A DNA stretch of 21,010 nucleotides, taken from a virus. Shown piece by piece: positions 1,694 through 19,574 of this stretch (the stretch's first letter is position 1; each line of letters opens with the position of its first letter). The stretch lies in the IMG/VR virus record IMGVR_UViG_3300042294_002097, positions 1 through 21,010 of that record; one strand, written 5' to 3'. The notes under the pieces were generated by a model. It was not told the origin of the DNA, ran no database searches, and worked only from the letters and a program-made list of their open reading frames with translations. The position numbers and the translations under genes are program-made.

Positions 1694-3323
1694 GCCTCGC
1701 GCCAAGAAGCCGGCCGAGCACCCGGCCGCGAAGTGGAACACGATCCCCGGCTATGACGCGATCGCGACGGCGGGCAACTGCACCTTCGACGAGCAAGCCG
1801 CGCTCCATGTGATCCGATTCATCGAGACCGCGTGCAAACTCACCACGAGCACTTGGGCCGGCCTACCGTTCACGCTGCTCCCGTGGCAGAAGGCGGTGAT
1901 CGCGAACGCCTACGGGTGGATGCGCCCGGACGGCACCAGACGCTATCGTCGCGTTCACATCCTCGTCCCTCGCAAGTGCGGCAAGACCGAACTCGGCGCG
2001 GCCCTCGCGCTGTATCACCTCCTCGCGGACGATGAGCCTACGCCCGAGGTGATCTCGATCGCGGCCGACCGCGCGCAGGCGGGCCGATGCCTCGAGGCGG
2101 CGAAGCGCATGGTGCGGGCCGAGCCGATGCTCGAGAGCCGCACCGAGGTCTATCAACACCGGGTGATCGTGCCGAGCACGGCCGGCGTGTACAAGGTCAT
2201 GTCGAGCGAGGCTCCGAGCGCGCACGGCCTGAATACGAGCGCGTGCATCGCGGACGAGGTGCACGCGATGGAGAATCGGCGCGAGCTGTGGGAGGCGATC
2301 GAGACGAGCGTCGGCGCGCGTCGGCAACCGATGCTCGTGACGATCACGACCGCCGGCACGCTCCGCGAGAGTCTTGAGTTCGAGATGTACGACTATGCGT
2401 GCAAGGTGCGCGACCGCGTGATCGACAACCCCTACTTCTTGCCCGTGGTCTACTCGGCGAGCGAGGGCGACGATTGGACGAGTCCAGAGACCTGGCGCAA
2501 GTGCGCGCCGAGTCTCGGGCACACGGTGCACGAGGGGTACTACGCCGAGAAGTGCAAGGAGGCGCAGGAGCAGCCCTCGATGGAAACCCCGTTCCGAACC
2601 TACTACCTGTGCCAACATGTCTCCGCCTCGAACCGATGGCTTCGGATGGCGGATTGGGACAAGTGCCGTCTCGACTTCGACGAGTCCCGGCTCGCCGGCC
2701 TCCCGTGCTACCTCGGGATCGACTTGGGCGAGACGAGCGACCTCACCGCGCTCACGGCCGTATGGCTCGACAAGGACGAAGCGTGGGTGCGCTCGTGGGC
2801 GTTCGCGCCCGAGGAAGGCGCGCAGCGGCGGCAGAAGCGGGACAAGGTGCCCTATCTCGACTGGAGCCGGCAGGGGCATATGAGGCTTACACCGGGCGAC
2901 GCGACCGATTACGAGTTCGTGCGGCGGGAGATCCTGCGGATCGTCGGCGAGCACAAGGTGCAGGCGGTCGGGTACGACCCCTACAACGCGAGCGGCCTCG
3001 CGCAACAACTCGAGGCCGACGGCCTGCGGCTCAAGCGAGTGCCCCAGTCGTACTACTACATGGCCGAGCCGACCAAGCGATGGGAGGCGATGGTCACGAA
3101 CCATCGGCTGCGGCACGACGGCAACCCGGTGCTCACTTGGGCAATGTCCAACTGCGTCGTGGAACTCGACGCGAACTCGAACCCGCGCCCGAGCAAGCGA
3201 CGCTCGACGGAGAAGATCGACCCCGTGGTCGCGGGAATCGTGGCACTCGCGGTAGCACTCGATGCCGCGCCGACGGTATCACAAGCGACACCGTACGCCG
3301 AGAGAGGAATCCTATGGCTCTGA
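1683..3323 (+). CDS. terL: Phage terminase large subunit (ATPase and nuclease)
   Basis: This is the packaging motor: the N-terminal ATPase pumps DNA into the prohead and the C-terminal RNase H-like nuclease cuts concatemers. The Walker A-like motif VPRKCGKTE is at residues 95-103 (Lys101), and the Walker B segment ends in Asp191-Glu192 (ACIADEVHAM). The nuclease acidic residues are visible as LGIDLGETSDLTAL (Asp347), VGYDPYNASGL (Asp432) and EKIDPVVAGIVALA (Asp513). At 546 residues it is full length for the HK97/YmfN-type large terminases that accompany P27 small subunits. The start is GTG at 1683, overlapping the methyltransferase stop, with AAGG at 1673-1676 as the ribosome site. The end overlaps the portal start by 10 bases, so the genes are probably translationally coupled. 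Confidence 0.96.
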   Translation: MARKPRAKKPAEHPAAKWNTIPGYDAIATAGNCTFDEQAALHVIRFIETACKLTTSTWAGLPFTLLPWQKAVIANAYGWMRPDGTRRYRRVHILVPRKCGKTELGAALALYHLLADDEPTPEVISIAADRAQAGRCLEAAKRMVRAEPMLESRTEVYQHRVIVPSTAGVYKVMSSEAPSAHGLNTSACIADEVHAMENRRELWEAIETSVGARRQPMLVTITTAGTLRESLEFEMYDYACKVRDRVIDNPYFLPVVYSASEGDDWTSPETWRKCAPSLGHTVHEGYYAEKCKEAQEQPSMETPFRTYYLCQHVSASNRWLRMADWDKCRLDFDESRLAGLPCYLGIDLGETSDLTALTAVWLDKDEAWVRSWAFAPEEGAQRRQKRDKVPYLDWSRQGHMRLTPGDATDYEFVRREILRIVGEHKVQAVGYDPYNASGLAQQLEADGLRLKRVPQSYYYMAEPTKRWEAMVTNHRLRHDGNPVLTWAMSNCVVELDANSNPRPSKRRSTEKIDPVVAGIVALAVALDAAPTVSQATPYAERGILWL

Positions 3324-5032
3324 TCGACTGGTTCCGCCGACCCGCCCCGACTCCCGAGCCGACGCTCGAAGAGCGCGCGGTGATCGACCGCTCGCCGATC
3401 GGACAGCCTCCGGGCGGAGCGCAGGCGTACATCTCGACCTACGCCGACACGGGACGCTCGATCACGCCGGAGGCAGCGAGGGAGGCTCCGACGGTCTACG
3501 CCTGCACGCGGCTCATATCCCAGAGCGTGGCGCGGATGGAGTGGCGAGTCATGCGCCGGGAGGGAGGGATCCCGGTTCCCGCTCGCGAGCATCCGCTCTA
3601 TCGGCTCCTGAACATCGAGCCGAACCCGTACATGGGGGCGATGGTCTGGCGCGAGTCGATGCTCCTCGACTGCCTCCTTTACGGGAACGCCTACGCCGTG
3701 ATCGAGCGCGACGCTGTCGGCCGCGTGGTCGGCCTGCACAAGTTGCGAGCGGACTCGGTCGAGGTCTCTCGAGGCCCGGACGGGATGCCCGTCTACTCGT
3801 ACACCTCCTCGCGTTGGGGCGTGTCGAAGAGCACCGATCAGGTGTGGCAGGCGTACGACATCTTCCACCTCCGCGCGCCGAGCCTCGACGGTCTCCTCGG
3901 CGAGACTCCGATCTACCTCGTGCGGAACATCATCGGCGTGGAACTCGAGGCGGAGAAGTTCGTCGCGAGTTTCTTCCGCAACGGCGCACGGCCGGCGGGA
4001 CTCATCAAGGTGACGGGCACGCTCACCGAGGAAGCACTCAAGCGGCTACGCCAGTCGTGGCAGTCGATCACGGGCGGCGCGGAGAACGCCGGCCGCGTGG
4101 CGATCCTGGAAAGCGGCTACTCGTGGGAGAAGGTCTCGGTCGATCCCGAGGAAGCGAAACTCGTCGAACTGCGCTCGTTCTGTCGGTCGCAGATTGCGGC
4201 CGCGTTCAATGTCCCGGTGCACATGGTCGGCGACGCGACGAAGACCTCGTACGCGAGTGCCGAGCAGGCCGATGCCGAGTTCGTGAAGCATTGTCTCGCG
4301 AACTGGGCCTCGCGGTTCGAGGAGGAGTGCGCGCGCAAGCTCGTGCGCGAAGGCGAGCCGATCGAGACTCACATCTCGTTCGACGCTCTGCTCCGAGGCG
4401 ACCTCGCGTCGCGATTCGCGGCGTACTCGACCGCGCTGAACAATGGCTTCCTAACGATCAACGAGGTGCGCGAGCGTGAGAACTACGCGCCGATCGACGG
4501 CGGCGATGCGGCTCGCGCGCCCGTGAACCTGGCGATCGTCGATCCGAACGCCGGCAAGTCGGGCGACGATGTGGCTAGTCTGGCTCCCGCCACGGCTCCG
4601 ACCGAAGCACCGACCGCCGGATCCGAGGATGCCGTCGATGCCGCGATCGCCGGAGAGGCTCCAGTATCGGAGACCGCGCTCAACGGCGCACAAGTCACCG
4701 CGCTCGTGGATCTCGCCGCCAAGGTCAAGTCTGGGGAACTCCCGAAGGCTTCCGCGCTCGCCATCGCGAAGGCCGCGTTCCCGGCAATCGATGCGTCGGT
4801 GATCGAGGCGATCTTCGCCGACATCGTCGAGGGATCGGCTCCAGTCGTGCCGGCATCGCGGGACTCGAAGGGCCGCTACGCGAAGCGCAAGTCAAAGCGG
4901 CTCGCCGATCTCTCGCCCGAGGTTCAGGAGTGCGTGAGCGGCAAGATCGGTCGGCTCCTCGACGAGGGCTACGATCAGGATCAGGCTGTCGCGATCGCGA
5001 TCTCGATGTGCACGGAGGCCGAGGGTGGCTGA
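3314..5032 (+). CDS. Phage portal protein, HK97 family, with extra C-terminal modules
   Basis: This is the dodecameric portal at the unique head vertex through which DNA enters and leaves. Family hallmarks are PTVYACTRLISQSVARMEWRV (from residue 59), the segment with DCLLYGNAYAVIERD (119-133), FHLRAPSLDGLLGETPI (184-200), FRNGARPAGLIKV (221-233) and FNVPVHMVGDATKTSYASAEQ (298-318). The core ends near residue 405. An Ala/Pro-rich linker follows, then a helical module at 456-505 (ALNGAQVTALVDLAAKVKSG) and a terminal segment with KIGRLLDEGYDQDQAVAIAI (544-563). Both are uncharacterised add-ons; similar modules occur in other phage head proteins as I recall, but I could not search. The ATG at 3314 is preceded by AGAGAGG. 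An upstream in-frame extension inside the terminase gene is rejected because it only makes an Arg-rich shadow peptide. Confidence 0.95.
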   Translation: MALIDWFRRPAPTPEPTLEERAVIDRSPIGQPPGGAQAYISTYADTGRSITPEAAREAPTVYACTRLISQSVARMEWRVMRREGGIPVPAREHPLYRLLNIEPNPYMGAMVWRESMLLDCLLYGNAYAVIERDAVGRVVGLHKLRADSVEVSRGPDGMPVYSYTSSRWGVSKSTDQVWQAYDIFHLRAPSLDGLLGETPIYLVRNIIGVELEAEKFVASFFRNGARPAGLIKVTGTLTEEALKRLRQSWQSITGGAENAGRVAILESGYSWEKVSVDPEEAKLVELRSFCRSQIAAAFNVPVHMVGDATKTSYASAEQADAEFVKHCLANWASRFEEECARKLVREGEPIETHISFDALLRGDLASRFAAYSTALNNGFLTINEVRERENYAPIDGGDAARAPVNLAIVDPNAGKSGDDVASLAPATAPTEAPTAGSEDAVDAAIAGEAPVSETALNGAQVTALVDLAAKVKSGELPKASALAIAKAAFPAIDASVIEAIFADIVEGSAPVVPASRDSKGRYAKRKSKRLADLSPEVQECVSGKIGRLLDEGYDQDQAVAIAISMCTEAEGG

Positions 5033-5912: not shown

Positions 5913-5944
5913 CCTTCGACACTCAAAGATGCGAGGATAAGGAT

Positions 5945-7042
5945 ATGAGCGAGACTCGACACCGCGAAGCGTTCCTTCGCTACCTCTCACGCGGCCCTGC
6001 CGCGATCAGCAGCGAAGACGCGCGCACGCTCCACGAACAGCGTGGCGTGCAGACCGCGAGCCTTACGCCCGAGGCGTGGGCCTCGTTCTTCACCGAGTCG
6101 ATGCAGACCTCGTGGGTGCTCGGTCGCGTTCGCAAGGTCGATGTGACTGCGAACAAGTTGACCGTCACGCACTACAACGAGAACATCGAGACGCAGGATC
6201 GGATCTCGTACGATCAGGAAGGCGCACGCGCCGACATCAACGGCACCTTCGAGTTGCCGCGATGGAAGAAGTCGGGCGGATCCGTTCCGACGAACTACGA
6301 CCTCGAGTACGAGAGTCGAGCGATCACGCTCCACGATGTCGGCGTGAACATGATCGTCTCGAAGGAACTGATCGAGGAATCGATCGGTAGCGTGAGCGCG
6401 GAGAGCGTGCTTCGCGACTTCCTGATCCGGAAGCTCCAGACCGAGATCGAGCGACAGATCCTCGTCGGCGATCCGTCGATCAACACGAACTCGCGCAAGG
6501 AGATGCAGGGAATCTGGAACTACCCGCTCTTCAAGTCTGCTTCGAGCGTGTACGGCGAAGGTAATCAGGTCGTCGATGATGCGAACGGAGCAGCGGGCGG
6601 CTCGATCTCTGGACTTCCTCGCCTTGAGATCGTGAGCCGGATCATCCGTCCGTCCTCGTACGGTAATGCCGTGTGGGTCTTGGCGCGAACCGCATCGATC
6701 GCCGAGATGTTCGTCACTTCGTCGGGCGGATCAGCGCAGACGATTCTCCCTCTCGCCGGCCTCTCGGCCAGCGATGGCGACTCGTACGGCTCGCTCTTCA
6801 ATCGTCCGATGTACGGGATGCCTTACACGAACTACCAAGGCGACGCAGACGCGACGGGCGACCGTCTCGCGCTGCTCGTCGATCTCTCCAAGTATGTGCT
6901 CGCGATGCACACGAGCGGCCTCCAGGTGGAGCGGCTCAACGAAGTGCGCGCAGCGACCGGACAAGTCGTGCTTCGGGCATCCGTCCGCGTGGGCGGGAAC
7001 ATGATCGACCCCAAGTCGCTCATCTGCCTGAAGGCCAACTAA
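5945..7042 (+). CDS. HK97-fold major capsid protein, first copy, without delta domain
   Basis: This is a shell protein of the HK97 fold. Its N-terminus (HREAFLRYLSRGPAAIS, residues 6-22) resembles the start of a mature capsid domain in HK97-type proteins, so no scaffolding domain precedes it. The long-helix region is SKELIEESIGSVSAESVLRD (139-158), followed by LQTEIERQILVGDP (164-177). The C-terminal part GNAVWVLARTASIAEMF (240-256), then LVDLSKYVLAMHTSGLQVER (311-330) and VGGNMIDPKSLICLK (349-363), is typical family sequence. At 365 residues the fold is complete. I chose ATG 5945 because GAGGATAAGG precedes it; an upstream in-frame TTG at 5909 lacks support. A second, divergent capsid gene follows after a 24-base gap. 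Roles as co-assembled shell, vertex or decoration subunit are all open. Confidence 0.88.
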   Translation: MSETRHREAFLRYLSRGPAAISSEDARTLHEQRGVQTASLTPEAWASFFTESMQTSWVLGRVRKVDVTANKLTVTHYNENIETQDRISYDQEGARADINGTFELPRWKKSGGSVPTNYDLEYESRAITLHDVGVNMIVSKELIEESIGSVSAESVLRDFLIRKLQTEIERQILVGDPSINTNSRKEMQGIWNYPLFKSASSVYGEGNQVVDDANGAAGGSISGLPRLEIVSRIIRPSSYGNAVWVLARTASIAEMFVTSSGGSAQTILPLAGLSASDGDSYGSLFNRPMYGMPYTNYQGDADATGDRLALLVDLSKYVLAMHTSGLQVERLNEVRAATGQVVLRASVRVGGNMIDPKSLICLKAN

Positions 7043-7066
7043 TCACCAACGCCACAAGGAGGCAAC

Positions 7067-8332
7067 ATGAACGGTGATACTTACAAGGGACTCGTCGAGA
7101 AGATGGGTGCCCTCTACGCGGAGATGCAGGAGATGGTGGCAGGCATGGATGGCGCGACCGAAGAGGCCGCCGCCGAGATGCAGGCCAAGTACGAGGAGAA
7201 GAGCAAGCAGTACGACGCTCTCGCCAAGCGTCGCGACATGATCGCCGACCTGAACTCGCGCGCCGCCAAGAGCTCGCACGGCGTGGTCGTGGTCGAGCGT
7301 GAGGCTCCGGCCCGCGTCGAGACTCGCTCGTTCGCTCCGCAGATCGGCGAGCAGTACGAGGCTCGGTTCGCCGACTACCTGAAGAACGGCCACCGCCGCG
7401 ACTTCGACACTCGCGCGATCGCCGCAGGCTCGGGCGACGGCCAGTACCTCCCGTCGGCCGGCTTCTACGCCCAGTTGCAGAAGAGCGTGGAACTCGAGAC
7501 CGCGATCTACAACCTCTGCCGCAAGATCGATGTCGGCAACTTCACGACCAACTTCACGCTCGAGGGCGACTTCCTCTCCACCGAGATCGACGGCGAAGGT
7601 TGGGCCGGCGAAGCGGGCTCGGTCGATGAATACACGCCGACCTTCACCAACAAGACCTTCACGGGCAACTCGCTGCGCCGCGTGGTCAAGGTCTCGCGTG
7701 AACTCGTGCAGGACGCTCCTGCTCGCGGTGCTGACTTCAGCGTCGAGAGCATGGTCGCGCAGCGCATGGGTCGCCTCTTCGGCCAGTCGATCGAGTACCA
7801 GTTGTGGCACGGCAACGGCACGAACAAGCCGGAAGGTCTGAAGAACGCCACGCTCGGCACCGCTACCGAGCTCGCGACCGACGGCACGCTCACCTCTGAC
7901 GAACTCATCACTTGGGTCTACAGCCTGCCGATGAAGTACCTCAAGAGCCCGTCGTGCGCGATCGTCACGAGCCAGTCGTTCCTGACGGCCGTCCGCAAGT
8001 TGACCGAGAAGGTCATCGGCTCGTCCGGCCACTTGAGCGCGCCGTACCTCTGGGAGCCTTCCTTCCAGGCCGGCACGCCCGACCGTCTGCTCGGCATCCC
8101 GGTCTATGTCACGCCGTGGGCACCCACGCTCGGCAATGTCAACGACCAGATCCACGCGGTGATCGGCGACTTCCAGCACATGGTGGTCGCGCAGCGCACG
8201 GGCATGAGCGTGCAGGTTCTCAACGAACTGTACGCCGGCAACGGCCAGATCGGCTACCTCGGCGAGATGCGCCTCGACGCGAAGGTCGTTCGCGCCGATG
8301 CCTTCCGCGCCCTGAAGGATGACAACACCTAA
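7067..8332 (+). CDS. HK97-fold major capsid protein, second copy, with delta scaffolding domain
   Basis: This is the canonical HK97-type major capsid protein. Residues 1-70 are an acidic, helical delta domain (VEKMGALYAEMQEMV onward) that scaffolds assembly and is normally removed by the prohead protease; cleavage probably falls near residues 75-100. The mature part has ARFADYLKNGHRRDF (99-113), SLRRVVKVSRELVQD, a QSIEYQLWHGNGTNKPEGLK turn and the C-terminal run ending GYLGEMRLDAKVVRADAFRALK. At 421 residues it is full length. The ribosome site AAGGAGG just before ATG 7067 is among the strongest in the window, and a rho-independent terminator follows directly, as expected for the most abundant virion protein. 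It is a distant paralog, not a duplicate, of the preceding gene. Confidence 0.95.
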   Translation: MNGDTYKGLVEKMGALYAEMQEMVAGMDGATEEAAAEMQAKYEEKSKQYDALAKRRDMIADLNSRAAKSSHGVVVVEREAPARVETRSFAPQIGEQYEARFADYLKNGHRRDFDTRAIAAGSGDGQYLPSAGFYAQLQKSVELETAIYNLCRKIDVGNFTTNFTLEGDFLSTEIDGEGWAGEAGSVDEYTPTFTNKTFTGNSLRRVVKVSRELVQDAPARGADFSVESMVAQRMGRLFGQSIEYQLWHGNGTNKPEGLKNATLGTATELATDGTLTSDELITWVYSLPMKYLKSPSCAIVTSQSFLTAVRKLTEKVIGSSGHLSAPYLWEPSFQAGTPDRLLGIPVYVTPWAPTLGNVNDQIHAVIGDFQHMVVAQRTGMSVQVLNELYAGNGQIGYLGEMRLDAKVVRADAFRALKDDNT

Positions 8333-8354
8333 TAGGTGGATGGTCGGATGAAAC

Positions 8355-8387
8355 GAGGGCGGGCCGCAAGGCTCGCCCTCTTCTTTT
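8355..8387 (+). terminator. Rho-independent terminator after the capsid gene
   Basis: An 11-base stem, GAGGGCGGGCC (8355-8365) with GGCTCGCCCTC (8370-8380), has one G-T type pair and is closed by a GCAA loop of the stable GNRA class. The stem is followed by TTCTTTT (8381-8387). It lies 23 bases after the second capsid stop codon, between the head block and the connector genes, and probably lowers expression of downstream genes relative to capsid. Confidence 0.88.
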
Positions 8388-8397
8388 CGGATCACAC

Positions 8398-8601
8398 ATG
8401 AGAGTCCACATACTGAAGTCCTTCGTCACGAGCGCAGGCGCGTTCGCCGCAGGTATGCGCTGCGAGATTCCAGATTCTGACGCGGCGCGATACATTGCGT
8501 CCGGCTTGGTCGAGCGCGACGAGCCGAAGATCGAGACTCCCGAGCGTGGCCGTGTGCGGCTCCGCAAGGCGACGAAGGAGGCGAGCGATGCTGGCGATTG
8601 A
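8398..8601 (+). CDS. Small unknown protein between capsid and connector genes
   Basis: This is a 67-residue protein without a firm family. The first 40 residues (MRVHILKSFVTSAGAFAAGM onward, then DAARYIASGLVE) have the look of small beta-rich phage proteins often placed after capsid genes, with a pattern of an extended strand, a Gly turn and an AARxIxxGLVE end. The C-terminus is charged (ERGRVRLRKATKEASD). The start ATG at 8398 lies eleven bases after the terminator and has only a weak ribosome site. The last 14 bases overlap the next gene, whose ribosome site AAGGAGG (8575-8581) lies inside it, suggesting translational coupling. Position suggests a head-related accessory role; that is inference only. 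Confidence 0.75.
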   Translation: MRVHILKSFVTSAGAFAAGMRCEIPDSDAARYIASGLVERDEPKIETPERGRVRLRKATKEASDAGD

Positions 8602-9208
8602 CGGTGCGACCTACCTGTCGAATGTCGAGGCGACCTCGCCGGCGGTCGAGCCTGTCACGATTACCGAGGCGAAGGCGCACTTGCGAGTGACGCACACGGA
8701 CGAGGACTCGCTCATCACCTCGCTCATCGTGGCGGCGAGGAACTATGTCGAGGGACTGGCTAATCGCCCGTTCGTCAACCGAACCTACACGCTGAAGCTC
8801 GATCGCTTCCCGCGCGGCTACGAGATCATCCTCCCGGCCGGCAAGGTCTCGGCGGTCTCCTCGATCACCTATGTGGACACGGCCGGCGCGACGCAGACCT
8901 TGAGCGCGGGCGCGTACACGCTCGAGGGCCAGAGGCTCCCGAGCAGCATCGTCATTAACCCGAGCACGATCTCGGCGTGGCCGAGCACGCGGGTCTACGC
9001 GGGCATCTCAAGCGTGACGATCGGCTATACGGCCGGCTACGGCGCGGCCGCTAGCGCGATCCCGCAGGCTCTCCGGCAGGCCGTGCTGATGTCGGTCGCA
9101 TACTGGTACGACATCGCCCGCGAGACCGGGAGCGAGACCGCGCTCACCGAAGTCCCGCATGGCGTGGAGTCGCTCGCTCGGATGTACTCGATCCCGAGGA
9201 TGGCATGA
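8588..9208 (+). CDS. Head-tail connector protein (gp6-like / phiE125 gp8-like)
   Basis: This is the adaptor ring that docks under the portal and joins head to tail. The diagnostic N-terminal run is VTITEAKAHLRVTHTDEDSL followed by ITSLIVAARNYVEGLANRPF, the standard helical opening of the gp6-like connector family. A middle beta region and a C-terminal helical end with ALRQAVLMSVAYWYDIARE follow, and 206 residues is the usual length. The ATG at 8588 is chosen because AAGGAGG stands seven bases before it and the family motif begins soon after. A longer in-frame extension upstream only reads the preceding gene out of frame. The stop overlaps the next start as ATGA. Confidence 0.93.
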   Translation: MLAIDGATYLSNVEATSPAVEPVTITEAKAHLRVTHTDEDSLITSLIVAARNYVEGLANRPFVNRTYTLKLDRFPRGYEIILPAGKVSAVSSITYVDTAGATQTLSAGAYTLEGQRLPSSIVINPSTISAWPSTRVYAGISSVTIGYTAGYGAAASAIPQALRQAVLMSVAYWYDIARETGSETALTEVPHGVESLARMYSIPRMA

Positions 9209-9540
9209 GGCGAGTCCGCTCCGGCCTGATGCGCACGCCGTTCCTCGTGCTCAACCGCACGACGGATCTCGACGAGTTCGGCTCGCTCGAGCCGACCTTC
9301 CTCGGCGTGGGCACGATCGTCTGGGGCTACCTCAAAGGGACATCTGCCGCCGAGGGTGTCGAGCGCGAGCAGGTCACACACCAACGCTCCTACGAGATTA
9401 TGATGCGCGAGAAGGATGCCGCTCTTCTGTCGGTGACGGCCCGCCTCCAGACGGACACCCGTACCTTCGAGATCATCGGCATCGAGCAGTACGACGCGCG
9501 GCAGCAGACCGTGACCGTGACCGTGCGGGAGGTGGCGTGA
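9205..9540 (+). CDS. Head closure / head-tail adaptor protein (SPP1 gp16-like)
   Basis: This is probably the small beta-barrel protein that closes the neck channel after packaging. Its 111 residues fit the family: an N-terminal strand (FLVLNRTTDLDEFGSLEPTF), a loop containing AAEGVEREQVTHQRSYEIMM, which matches the usual pattern of an R/E-rich strand before a conserved basic strand, and an end with FEIIGIEQYDARQQTVTVTV. The last part is the typical 'rFeIigi...d.r...l.l.c.Ev' pattern of head-tail joining proteins. It overlaps the connector gene by ATGA and the gp10-like gene by one base, the usual neck gene order. Identification rests on motif style and position. Confidence 0.85.
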   Translation: MRRVRSGLMRTPFLVLNRTTDLDEFGSLEPTFLGVGTIVWGYLKGTSAAEGVEREQVTHQRSYEIMMREKDAALLSVTARLQTDTRTFEIIGIEQYDARQQTVTVTVREVA

Positions 9541-10109
9541 TGTCGCAGCAGTTCTTCGAGAGCGTGAACCTGTCCGGCGGGAAGGAACTCGTCGCGGCGT
9601 TCAAGAAACTCGACGACAATCTCAAGAAGGCGATGATCGAGCGCGTGGCGACTCGGACGCTCGAGCGCATCGCCGCCGCCATGCGCTCCGAGATCAACTC
9701 GCTCACGACGAACACGGACAAGGGATTCCCCGGCGATCGATTGTGGCCGTACATGAGGCGTGGCCGCATGGTCTCGCCAGGTCTCGCGCGCTCGAAGGTC
9801 TCGACGGCGATCGCCGTGATCCCGCTCGGCTCGAAGCAGCGTCGGCTCTACATCGGTCGCCGCATCGGCGTGACCGGGAAGAGCGGGGCGTTCTACGGCC
9901 GGCTCATCGAGAAGGGCTTCTCGATCGTCCGCAAGGGCCGGATGCGCGGATGGGTGAAGGGAAAGAAGGACATCCCCGGCAAGTGGGTCTTCTTCCGCCT
10001 CTTCAAGCGGCTCAAGCCGGGAGCCGAGGCTTCGGCGGTGCAGGAGTTCACGGACTTCATCAACGAGTGGGGCCGGATCAAGTCCACGCCCAGTAAGGAT
10101 CTCTCGTGA
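9540..10109 (+). CDS. HK97 gp10-like neck / tail completion protein
   Basis: This 189-residue protein fits the HK97 gp10 family of neck proteins, which act with the tail terminator when the tail joins the head. The N-terminal helix GGKELVAAFKKLDDNLKKAM followed by ERVATRTLERIAAAMRSEIN is the standard opening of this family (short strand, then 'L...L..lp..v...v...al...a..i...a'). The middle is rich in basic residues (RLYIGRRIG, FYGRLIEKG), and the C-terminal helix EASAVQEFTDFINEWGRI is also usual. ATG 9540 follows directly on the previous stop; GTG 9537 is an alternative adding one residue. It lies between head closure and tail terminator genes, which supports the call. Confidence 0.88.
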   Translation: MSQQFFESVNLSGGKELVAAFKKLDDNLKKAMIERVATRTLERIAAAMRSEINSLTTNTDKGFPGDRLWPYMRRGRMVSPGLARSKVSTAIAVIPLGSKQRRLYIGRRIGVTGKSGAFYGRLIEKGFSIVRKGRMRGWVKGKKDIPGKWVFFRLFKRLKPGAEASAVQEFTDFINEWGRIKSTPSKDLS

Positions 10110-10549
10110 GTGCACAAACCGTCTGGAACATCGAGACCGCGATCAAGGCCAAGGTCGCCGCTACGGCGAGCCTGACCTCGATCATCGGCACGCACCCGGT
10201 GCGGATCTACCCCGAACTCCGGGAGGACAACGGGTCGCTCCCGGCGATCGTGTACGAGTTGAACTCGAGCGCGCCGTATCTGGTGCTCTCGGGCGTGCCG
10301 ACCCTCACCCGGTCGAGCGTGTCGCTCCATTGCCTCGCGCTCGACAAGAAGGTCTCCGTGGACATCGCCCAGAAGGCTCAAGCGATCTTCGCCGACTGGT
10401 CGCAGGACTTCTCGTCCGGCGGGGTCGTGAAGATTTCCGTCAAGTCGAGCCGGGTCTCGACGATCCAAACCGACTATCAACCGCCCGCAGATGGTGCCAC
10501 GCACGGTTTATATCTGGCGACGCTAGAGGTAGTCTCGATGCACTCCTAA
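10106..10549 (+). CDS. Tail terminator / tail completion protein (DUF3168-like)
   Basis: This is a probable tail terminator, the ring that ends tail tube growth and binds the neck. Its 147 residues have the family's features: an N-terminal helix WNIETAIKAKVAATASLTSI followed by IGTHPVRIYPELREDNGSLPA and the strand IVYELNSS. This reproduces the usual 'hPVrIy...a.q.a.lPaivy.' pattern. The rest is compatible, with LTRSSVSLHCLALDK and a C-terminal strand. The start is GTG at 10106, overlapping the previous stop. Position directly before the tail tube genes fits the conserved neck order. A 13-base gap separates it from the first tail tube gene. Confidence 0.85.
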   Translation: MSAQTVWNIETAIKAKVAATASLTSIIGTHPVRIYPELREDNGSLPAIVYELNSSAPYLVLSGVPTLTRSSVSLHCLALDKKVSVDIAQKAQAIFADWSQDFSSGGVVKISVKSSRVSTIQTDYQPPADGATHGLYLATLEVVSMHS

Positions 10550-10562
10550 CGAGGTACTCCGC

Positions 10563-10952
10563 ATGGCACTCTCCGCATACAACACGACGCTCTCCATCGG
10601 CGGTACGGCCGTCGGCGAAGTCACGAACATCTCTGTCGGTGGTTCCTCGCTGACCGAGATCGACATCACGAACCTCACGAGCACGGACAAGTCCTACATC
10701 ATGGGTGCGCTCGAAGCGGGCACGCTCACGATCGACTTCTTCGCGCCGGCGAACTACGCGGACTTTTCCGCCTCGCTGATCCCGGCGAGCGGCGACGCGA
10801 CGGCTTCGAGTTTCACGATCGCGTTTGCTGGCGGATCGCTCGACGCTGCCTTTGATGGCATCTGCACGAATCTCTCGATCTCGGCGGAGCAGGACGGGGC
10901 CGTGACCGCGTCCGCTACCGTCAAGCTCACGACCGCAATCACCTGGAGCTAA
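10563..10952 (+). CDS. Tail tube protein, paralog 1
   Basis: This is a 129-residue beta-rich protein, interpreted as a tail tube (major tail) subunit that polymerises around the tape measure protein. The pattern GEVTNISVGGSSLTEIDIT (residues 18-36), then EAGTLTIDFFAP (51-62) and a C-terminal half with SSFTIAFAGG and NLSISAEQDGAV, follows the strand order of lambda gpV-like tube proteins. There each subunit sets its specification strand with '.i..i..dd......G..d.gtis....f.p'. It sits between tail terminator and chaperone genes, the expected place. It is about 69% identical, without gaps, to the next gene by my hand alignment (89 of 129). Its final codons, acctggagc, place GGAG upstream of the next start. 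Confidence 0.82.
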   Translation: MALSAYNTTLSIGGTAVGEVTNISVGGSSLTEIDITNLTSTDKSYIMGALEAGTLTIDFFAPANYADFSASLIPASGDATASSFTIAFAGGSLDAAFDGICTNLSISAEQDGAVTASATVKLTTAITWS

Positions 10953-10955
10953 TCG

Positions 10956-11345
10956 ATGGCACTCTCCTCGTACGGTACGGAGTTCTATGCGGCTGGTGTC
11001 CTCATCGGTGAGGTCACTAGCATTTCCGTCGGCGGCTCTTCGCTGACCGAGATCGATATCACCAGTCTCACGAGCACCGACAAGGCGTACATCATGGGTG
11101 CTTTTGAGTCTGGCACTATCACGGTGGACTTCTTCGCGCCGTCGGACTTCGCGAGTATTCAATCGGTGATCCAACCGATCAGCGGAGATGCCACCGCGAG
11201 CGTGTTCGTCATCTACTTCGCCGGAGCACAACTCACCGCTAGCGCGAACGGCATCTGCACGAACCTGTCGATCTCGGCCGAGCAGGATGGTGCCGTGCAG
11301 GCTTCGTCTACGATCAAACTCACGACCGCAATCACCTGGAGCTAA
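10956..11345 (+). CDS. Tail tube protein, paralog 2
   Basis: This is a second 129-residue tail tube protein, aligned end to end with the preceding gene. Residues 23-36 (ISVGGSSLTEIDIT), about 90-113 (a block ending AEQDGAV) and the last nine residues (KLTTAITWS) are identical, while the N-terminal 5-17 and the middle 63-75 differ. The identical blocks are probably subunit contact or fold positions. The start is only three bases after the previous stop, and the ribosome site GGAG lies inside the previous gene's Trp-Ser codons. Sequence divergence shows the duplication is not recent, so both copies are probably used. It may build a mixed tube or a special ring at one end; neither is proven. Confidence 0.82.
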   Translation: MALSSYGTEFYAAGVLIGEVTSISVGGSSLTEIDITSLTSTDKAYIMGAFESGTITVDFFAPSDFASIQSVIQPISGDATASVFVIYFAGAQLTASANGICTNLSISAEQDGAVQASSTIKLTTAITWS

Positions 11346-11348
11346 CAC

Positions 11349-11804
11349 ATGGCAATCGTCGCACCCGGCTCAACCTTCTCATACGCAACCTCGGTTGGAT
11401 CTGGAGGGACAACCTTCACCGCCGTCGGCGAGATCAAGTCGATCTCCGTCGATGGGATCTCGATCGCCGAGATCGATACCTCCGCTCTGTCGGCTAGCGT
11501 GAAGTCGTTCATCGGCGGCACGAAGGACTCGGGCACGATCTCCGTGACGCTCTTCGCGCCCGCGTATTCGGCCGGCCTTCTCGGCACGGGATCGAACAAC
11601 GGCGCGCTGAACCCGGCGACCTACGCGAACGGTGCCGACTACCGCAACTTCAGGATCCAGTTTGGGCCGAACACGGGCACGGGCGGTTTCCAGTTGGCCT
11701 TCTCGGGCTATGTCACTTCGTTCAATGTCTCGGCCGCAGTCGATGGCGCGGTCGAGGCCGACCTCACCGTCCGCGTGACTGGCAGCTTTACCTCCTCGAC
11801 CTGA
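11349..11804 (+). CDS. Tail tube protein, paralog 3 (longer form)
   Basis: This third member of the tail tube series has 151 residues. It shares the core pattern GEIKSISVDGISIAEIDTSA, then KDSGTISVTLFAP and a C-terminal SFNVSAAVDGAVEADLTVRV. It carries an insert of about 20 residues after the FAP motif (GLLGTGSNNGALNPATYANG) that the first two lack. It is clearly homologous but much more diverged than the other two are from each other. In overall form it looks closest to ordinary siphophage tube proteins, so it may be the original major tube subunit. The start is three bases after the previous stop and again uses the GGAG embedded in the upstream gene's end. Confidence 0.82.
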   Translation: MAIVAPGSTFSYATSVGSGGTTFTAVGEIKSISVDGISIAEIDTSALSASVKSFIGGTKDSGTISVTLFAPAYSAGLLGTGSNNGALNPATYANGADYRNFRIQFGPNTGTGGFQLAFSGYVTSFNVSAAVDGAVEADLTVRVTGSFTSST

Positions 11805-18323: not shown

Positions 18324-19574
18324 ATGCTGAACCCGTCGCGGGTGTGCTGCTGTGGGTCTCCGTCTTGCGGTGCTCAATACGGCCAGATCAGGCCGTACTC
18401 GCAGACCTCTGGATTCACTTATGAGGTCACGGACTTTCAGAGCGACTACGGGCCTCCGTCGCTGCTCGTGAACTGGCGGTACAGCGAGTTGGAGATCGTC
18501 GAGACCTCAACAGGGGTTCCTCGGGAATCCGGCTACTGGGAGGCGGGATGCTGCGCGATCGAGTACCCGTACGATTATCAAGGTACCGTCATCACCTGCT
18601 ACTCGCAGGATCCAGTTTTTCACGGACAGTACGAGAGCGATCAGATGGCGCTGCATCTCATCGCCCACTACCAGAAGATGCAATGCCCAGAACCGATCGA
18701 GCAAGTTTTCAAGTCGTTCTTTGTTCTATGGACTTGCACGAGAGGGTCGGATGGAAACGACTATTGCGGTGGAGCTGCGTGTAACCCGCTTTGCCCATTT
18801 GGGCAGTTTCAGGAACTTCCCGAAAGCATGATGCCGACGATATGGACAGGCGCGGAGTTGGCACAAGTATTTACTGACGATACGACAGTCGATCCCATGA
18901 CGATCGGAAAAGGGAAGTTGGTTGCCACCAGGTCTACCGGGTTCTTCGGATTCAACACGGCCATCCAAAGCAACAACGGCCAGATGCTCCAAGCGACCTA
19001 CAATCATCGAGCGGACTTTTCGCAGGATGGCAATGCTTGCGAAGGAGCGTCGGTTCCAATCGAAACCCCATGCTCGGTAGTGTGTGCGTGTGTTTCCTCG
19101 CTCTACATCCGCACCAGAATGAGGCAGACCATCTATCGGATCACTTACGACTGCGATCTCAATCAGGTGCCTTATGCGTCCGCAATCGATCAGGATGTCT
19201 ACCTCTTCTACACGGGGCCACTCGATGGTCTCTTGTACGACGCGACAGCCCCCAACATTCCATCCCGAACCTTCACCTTGCAAGAGGCTAGGATCCAGTA
19301 CTTCGGTCTGTCAACCTTCTCCTTTGGAAGTAAATATATCTGCGATATCCCTCATCCATACTTCCCGATCTCCGTGTGCAACACACAAGATGTAGGCCCT
19401 ATGACATCGGAGACGATTGAGGAGCCGGACATTGAATGCCCCTACCATTGCGGGACTATCTCGTATCTTGATCCCGTGACTGGAGTCGGATCGCTGTATA
19501 ACATCATCAACGCCGCCGGAGCGAAGCAGTACGGCTTCCCGCAGACGATCACGGTGTTGAGGACTTCGACATGA
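18324..19574 (+). CDS. Cysteine-rich protein of unknown family, lower GC than its neighbours
   Basis: This is a 416-residue protein I do not recognise. It has about 21 cysteines, including the clusters VCCCGSPSCG near the start, CCAIEY, VCACV and ECPYHC. It is also rich in aromatic residues, with no signal peptide or membrane segment. The cysteines suggest metal binding or disulfide-stabilised surface structure. Base composition is lower than around it: one 60-base line (18841-18900) is 50% GC against 70% at 18001-18060, and codons ending in A or T are common, which points to later acquisition. Despite this, ACGT is absent here too. Position after the fibre and membrane genes suggests a host-range or accessory virion role. 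The end overlaps the next start as ATGA. Confidence 0.82.
   Translation: MLNPSRVCCCGSPSCGAQYGQIRPYSQTSGFTYEVTDFQSDYGPPSLLVNWRYSELEIVETSTGVPRESGYWEAGCCAIEYPYDYQGTVITCYSQDPVFHGQYESDQMALHLIAHYQKMQCPEPIEQVFKSFFVLWTCTRGSDGNDYCGGAACNPLCPFGQFQELPESMMPTIWTGAELAQVFTDDTTVDPMTIGKGKLVATRSTGFFGFNTAIQSNNGQMLQATYNHRADFSQDGNACEGASVPIETPCSVVCACVSSLYIRTRMRQTIYRITYDCDLNQVPYASAIDQDVYLFYTGPLDGLLYDATAPNIPSRTFTLQEARIQYFGLSTFSFGSKYICDIPHPYFPISVCNTQDVGPMTSETIEEPDIECPYHCGTISYLDPVTGVGSLYNIINAAGAKQYGFPQTITVLRTST

Follow-up and report, generated by a model that had tools for sequence, protein, structure and literature searches.

A conserved tandem pair of diverged HK97-fold capsid protein genes points to a likely two-protein head in uncultured tailed phages

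HK97-fold capsids are thought to form both hexamers and pentamers from one flexible protein. The locus described here carries two genes for such proteins side by side, and the question is what the second protein is for. The window, i.e. the whole stretch of DNA analyzed, is a viral contig of 21,010 nt (IMG/VR record IMGVR_UViG_3300042294_002097, positions 1 to 21,010). The original prediction, made from the sequence alone, placed two capsid protein genes at 5945-7042 (MCP1) and 7067-8332 (MCP2); both open reading frames were confirmed and are intact, encoding 365 and 421 amino acids, respectively. Relatives were found by scans of viral contigs and fall into clade A, which includes the window, and a second, deeply diverged clade B, with 38-40% identity in MCP2. 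The contigs of the group reach up to 36 kb.

The head and tail module of the window is arranged in the order small terminase, ParB/N6-methylase, large terminase, portal, prohead protease, MCP1, MCP2, followed by a head-tail adaptor, neck and tail genes, and the tape measure. The features of the capsid region are summarized in Table 1. Between the two terminase genes (494-1693), a ParB-N-like region is joined to an N6/N4 DNA methylase; the ParB match lies below the curated cut-off. The N-terminal domain of the protease (phrog_2859) also occurs as a separate copy about 1.2-1.9 kb upstream of the protease in the contigs L033, L072 and L084, and it opens a large ORF annotated as major capsid protein in S-CBS1 and the Roseobacter CRP phages, apparently a protease-capsid fusion. 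A gene at 18324-19574 encodes a cysteine-rich protein of 416 aa with atypical codon usage (ENC 52.6; GC3 0.67, versus 0.74-0.90 in the other tested genes) and is possibly a recent acquisition.

Table 1. Features of the capsid region, in window coordinates
Feature	Coordinates	Strand	Evidence
Portal protein gene	3314..5032	+	PF04860 Phage_portal, E 6e-101; phrog_12
Prohead protease, S78 family, with extra N-terminal domain of ~105 aa	5025..5912	+	PF04586, E 4.4e-39, residues 120-273; phrog_2859, residues 7-106
Shine-Dalgarno of MCP1, GAGG, weaker	5933..5936	+	anti-SD duplex -5.9 kcal/mol
MCP1, HK97-fold capsid protein lacking a delta domain; proposed to be a minor or vertex protein of the shell	5945..7042	+	PF05065, AF2 + VIA-align, conservation
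MCP1 residues 1-35, short conserved N-terminal segment, R-G-V end as candidate cleavage site	5945..6049	+	R33 and V35 invariant, G34 >90%; RALGE ends the clade B counterpart
MCP1 residues 191-310, axial (A) domain, hypervariable among relatives	6515..6874	+	17-90% identity vs 71-100% in the C-terminal part
MCP1 residues 311-365, C-terminal peripheral-domain strands, strongly conserved	6875..7039	+	no relative below 71% identity
Shine-Dalgarno of MCP2, AAGGAGG, strong	7056..7062	+	anti-SD duplex -11.4 kcal/mol
MCP2, major capsid protein of HK97 fold carrying a delta domain; proposed to form the main shell (hexamers)	7067..8332	+	PF05065, RcGTA profile, ENC 30.0
MCP2 residues 1-116, delta (scaffold) domain with coiled coil, reaching to the invariant TRA motif	7067..7414	+	AF2 helices; T115 R116 A117 invariant

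Both proteins match PF05065 (Phage_capsid) above its curated cut-off of 24.2 bits, MCP1 with E 4e-13 (49.8 bits) and MCP2 with E 4.8e-40 (138.2 bits). The great divergence between them that had been predicted was borne out, with 23% identity over 264 residues (BLASTP E 9e-6); a profile-profile alignment nevertheless spans 300 columns and the whole HK97 core (E 3.5e-12). The HK97 fold was found in both, by different routes. For MCP1, searches of the PDB with the sequence or with its profile gave no match. An AlphaFold2 (AF2) model built with 24 relatives is of moderate quality (pLDDT 56, pTM 0.61), with a poorly modelled A-domain, and matches 538 PDB chains at Z ≥ 8. A lack of the HK97 fold in MCP1 had been named as an outcome that would overturn the idea; since the best PDB matches of the model are all HK97-fold shells (RcGTA capsid, Z 14.5 by VIA-align; HK97 prohead I, Z 13.1; encapsulins), the idea survives this objection. 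The AF2 model of MCP2 is poor overall (pLDDT 41), and its N-terminal helices 6-27 and 32-69 are confident (pLDDT 74-84). Because the model is poor outside this coiled coil, the assignment of MCP2 to the HK97 fold rests on the match of its profile to the RcGTA capsid protein (6tb9/6tba, E 2.5e-20).

The two proteins differ most plainly at their N-termini. The coiled-coil helices of MCP2 (residues 6-69) lie ahead of an invariant TRA motif (T115 R116 A117), which agrees with the delta domain ascribed to it, and the coiled coil is missing from MCP1 in every relative, as had also been proposed. The PF05065 match starts at residue 48 in MCP1 versus residue 130 in MCP2. MCP1 had been said to start at about residue 98 of MCP2; the offset start holds and its exact place does not, because residue 8 of MCP1 aligns at residue 99 of MCP2, putting residue 1 near residue 92. 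The further claim that MCP1 begins directly at the mature N-arm and would not require cleavage was not upheld. Ahead of the N-arm lies a conserved segment, some 33 residues long (AF.RYL..G...ISS.DA...E.RGV), which still ends in a candidate cleavage motif, with R33 and V35 invariant and G34 conserved at >90% in clade A. The segment ends in R-G-V in clade A and R-A-L-G-E in clade B; at the same position MCP2 reads T-R-A-[IL] or R-R-A-L-S-E, the latter being the clade B partner of RALGE. In the structure alignment, residue 11 of MCP1 falls at HK97 residue 86, upstream of the HK97 cut, in a part where the model is weak. Maturation of the HK97 capsid protein removes about 104 residues (PMC9024508). 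An S78-family protease gene lies directly ahead of the capsid pair, and cut sites are predicted near R33/G34 in MCP1 and R116/A117 in MCP2. The N-terminal segment of MCP1 may thus be a short propeptide, possibly still cleaved.

A search for phages with the same gene pair, which had been suggested as a check, found it in 36 of 36 clade A contigs (counting distinct contigs that extend 1250 bases or more upstream of MCP2) and in all 12 clade B contigs. The order is always protease-MCP1-MCP2, and the clade B protease is homologous. Among overlapping loci, no MCP1 occurs without MCP2 where enough downstream DNA is available, and no MCP2 without MCP1 where enough is available upstream. Since all of these contigs carry it, the pair is not a chance occurrence, and pairing is obligate across the two clades. 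Outside them a single gene is the rule, in line with the expectation for HK97-like phages: the 420 phage records matched by MCP2 each have one matching place (420/420), the next relatives (L150-L169, 26-31% identity) have a single capsid gene, and annotated comparators including S-CBS1, CRP-811 and phiPsal1 have one each. About 64 PF05065 matches in 200 bacterial genomes included no adjacent pair, and searches via MCP1, clade B MCP1 or the protease found the same pair in no cultured phage. The sole match in the cellular genome collection, L086, comes from a Rhodobacteraceae MAG, in which it forms a contig of 4.1 kb; it is weak evidence for a host and probably a stray viral contig.

In the phylogenetic tree, MCP1 of clades A and B lies on one side of a branch (support 100/99) and MCP2 of both clades is likewise united (100/99). 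MCP2 stands next to the single-gene relatives, and MCP1 is on longer branches. All clade B MCP1 sequences score better against the MCP1 profile than against the MCP2 profile, which further supports a common grouping of clade A and clade B MCP1. With each protein in a lineage of its own, the pair is old. Long branches meet at the base of MCP1, so its placement as sister to the remaining sequences is uncertain, and it may have arisen by duplication or been acquired from elsewhere. Both genes are under purifying selection (dN/dS 0.13-0.40 for MCP1, 0.14-0.61 for MCP2). Tandem capsid genes could arise by recent duplication, and MCP1 might then be an ordinary duplicate, a decaying copy or an assembly artefact with no stable role. 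This explanation has next to no probability and is regarded as refuted by the 23% identity, the old separate lineages, dN/dS values well below 1 and the 48 independent contigs. A frameshift or a split gene was likewise rejected, both ORFs being complete.

With two distinct HK97-fold proteins, only MCP2 having a delta domain, and the two conserved together, a two-protein head is the likely meaning of the gene pair. As judged from expression signals, the two proteins may not be made in equal amounts. MCP2 is the most codon-biased of 18 genes tested in the window (ENC 30.0, MCP1 37.0), and the bias of MCP1 is weaker than that of MCP2 in 29 of 29 loci (mean ENC 40.5 vs 31.4). Among 23 clade A loci, the Shine-Dalgarno sequence of MCP2 is stronger than that of MCP1 in 15 and weaker in five. 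MCP2 thus looks like the abundant shell protein, and unequal amounts of MCP1 and MCP2 are suggested.

A weak codon bias and rapid divergence would suit a low-copy protein of any kind, in the virion or outside it. MCP1 might no longer be a shell part and instead serve as a capsid-derived assembly factor, a decoy or an anti-phage protein. Its faster divergence relative to MCP2 suits such a role. However, the conserved parts of MCP1 are the spine and the P-domain strands, as expected for shell packing, the candidate cleavage motif is retained, and the gene always lies within the head module, between the protease and MCP2; a role outside the shell is therefore considered improbable.

The arrangement of MCP1 and MCP2 within a shell can be approached through their variation. 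In the HK97 fold, A-domains pack at the center of the capsomer and P-domains contact neighbouring capsomers. Between relatives, the A-domain of MCP1 is 17-90% identical, whereas its C-terminal part is 71-100% identical. Even among relatives with MCP2 94-96% identical, identity of the MCP1 A-domain falls to 18-31%, with at least 75% in the C-terminal P-domain. MCP1 and MCP2 types reassort freely, all four combinations being found (window, L010, L023, L036); the same would equally be expected if MCP1 had no contact with MCP2. L023 also has a mosaic boundary at 8142-10331: its head genes are 90-96% identical to those of the window, except MCP1 (46%), and its neck and tail genes, from the 9205-type gene on, are only 37-52% identical.

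These data bear on a shell in which MCP1 and MCP2 would share the same hexamers and pentamers. There is a precedent in the two-component encapsulin of Streptomyces lydicus, where two HK97-fold shell proteins mix randomly (PMC12407261), and the joint conservation of MCP1 and MCP2 would suit it. Neighbours in a ring should match, and mixed capsomers are disfavoured because the MCP1 A-domain is free to vary while MCP2 stays nearly constant: where MCP1 A-domains are only 18-31% identical, those of the accompanying MCP2 are 88-95% identical. Free reassortment would be hard if A-domains packed in one ring, and the codon bias suggests unequal amounts. A mixed shell is therefore rated as unlikely. A variable MCP1 A-domain with a constant MCP2 fits rings made of MCP1 only that dock onto MCP2 rings. 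The S. lydicus proteins (Family 2B) resemble the pair in that two HK97-fold shell proteins are encoded together, and both rank with the top fold matches of MCP1 (9bje, Z 13.8; 9bix, Z 13.4). They differ in forming a cellular compartment, in random mixing, in an E-loop insertion domain and in the absence of portal, terminase and tail; the window has terminase, portal, protease and tail genes and is thus not an encapsulin locus.

Separate rings of a second protein are known from bacteriophage T4. The measures of codon bias, N-terminal length and divergence were applied as a yardstick to gp23 and gp24 of six T4-like phages. The PF07068 match begins at residue 18 of gp24 versus residue 88 of gp23, making gp24 about 70 residues shorter at its N-terminus; the propeptides lost are 10 residues in gp24 and 65 in gp23 (PMC9958956). 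In 6 of 6 phages gp24 is less codon-biased (ENC 42-50 vs 32-34), and it diverges faster (40-68% identity to T4, compared with 68-82% for gp23). T4 and the window share two paralogous HK97-fold genes (about 20% identity) close together behind a protease, with one paralog (gp24 or MCP1) that lacks most of the propeptide at its N-terminus, has weaker codon bias than its partner and evolves faster. MCP1 shows what would be expected of a gp24-like protein, being encoded by a separate paralogous gene, having a short propeptide or none, and being conserved together with the major gene.

The two pairs also differ. PF07068 is matched by gp23 and gp24 and not by MCP1 or MCP2, which belong to PF05065, so that MCP1 is no member of the T4 gp24 family. 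The scaffold is encoded by separate genes in T4 and would be the delta domain of MCP2 here, the gene order is reversed (major then vertex in T4, MCP1 then MCP2 in the window), and T4 is a 169 kb myovirus, in contrast to contigs of up to 36 kb. The A-domain of gp24 is not its most variable part in the T4-like phages; the excess is specific to MCP1. In MCP2, protease and portal, the group is of the same kind as HK97-type phages and RcGTA, which, unlike it, have one capsid gene. A review of T4 states that other well-studied phages use one capsid protein (PMC9958956), and a 2025 paper names T4 as the only virus in which two HK97-fold proteins play distinct structural roles (PMC12407261). In the openly accessible literature, T4-like cases were the only other two-MCP phages found, an absence that is not proof.

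On the best reading, MCP1 evolved independently of T4 gp24 and would work like it without belonging to its family; a gp24-like vertex protein accounts for the data better than random mixing in one shell would. That MCP1 is a minor shell protein, most likely forming the vertex pentamers, and MCP2 the main self-scaffolded shell protein is held to be moderately probable. MCP2 would be the abundant subunit and make the hexamers, with its delta domain as built-in scaffold. MCP1, an anciently diverged relative that would have lost the delta domain or never had it, would be made in smaller amounts and co-assemble as a separate type of capsomer, most likely as the pentamers of the eleven vertices not taken by the portal, in the way that gp24 does alongside gp23. 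The protease would remove the delta domain of MCP2 and probably also the short N-terminal piece of MCP1. Presence in the virion, low copy number, vertex position and cleavage of MCP1 are all things that we infer.

MCP1 might instead be minor because it occupies a special site away from the vertices, e.g. in the hexamers around the portal, or because it steers head size. Its low-copy signature would suit this, and without a delta domain its assembly would presumably depend on MCP2. An HK97-fold protein dedicated to a portal ring was not found in the literature searched, though, and no datum here favours such a site over the vertices, which leaves it a small chance.

Three tandem paralogous genes resembling major tail protein genes lie at 10563-11804; MTP1 and MTP2 are 69% identical, and MTP3 is 38% identical to MTP1. 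The MTP1 and MTP3 classes are kept in relatives with enough downstream DNA, MTP2 occurs only in some (window, L014, L016), and L033-L035 have a second MTP3-like copy. Because MTP1 is more strongly codon-biased (ENC 32.0 vs 39.4), the tail tube, too, may consist of one major and one minor paralog.

To return to MCP1 as a minor shell protein beside MCP2, chances are about even that the group has either a second, independent two-protein HK97 shell in tailed phages, with an exchangeable axial domain in the minor protein, or a hetero-capsomer shell, for which no viral precedent was found in the literature searched. Related shell proteins encoded side by side, one of them probably a low-copy corner piece, are documented in that literature only for T4 and its kin. 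Here they would occur in a large, old and uncultured group of tailed phages whose genomes are small and whose head is of the classic self-scaffolded, protease-matured type, the capsid pair being present in every tested contig. Such a group would replicate the T4 solution independently in nature, and its nearest single-gene relatives are available for comparison. With it one could test how and why pentamer and hexamer subunits are kept apart in a phage, and what lies behind the strong variation at the center of a corner protein.
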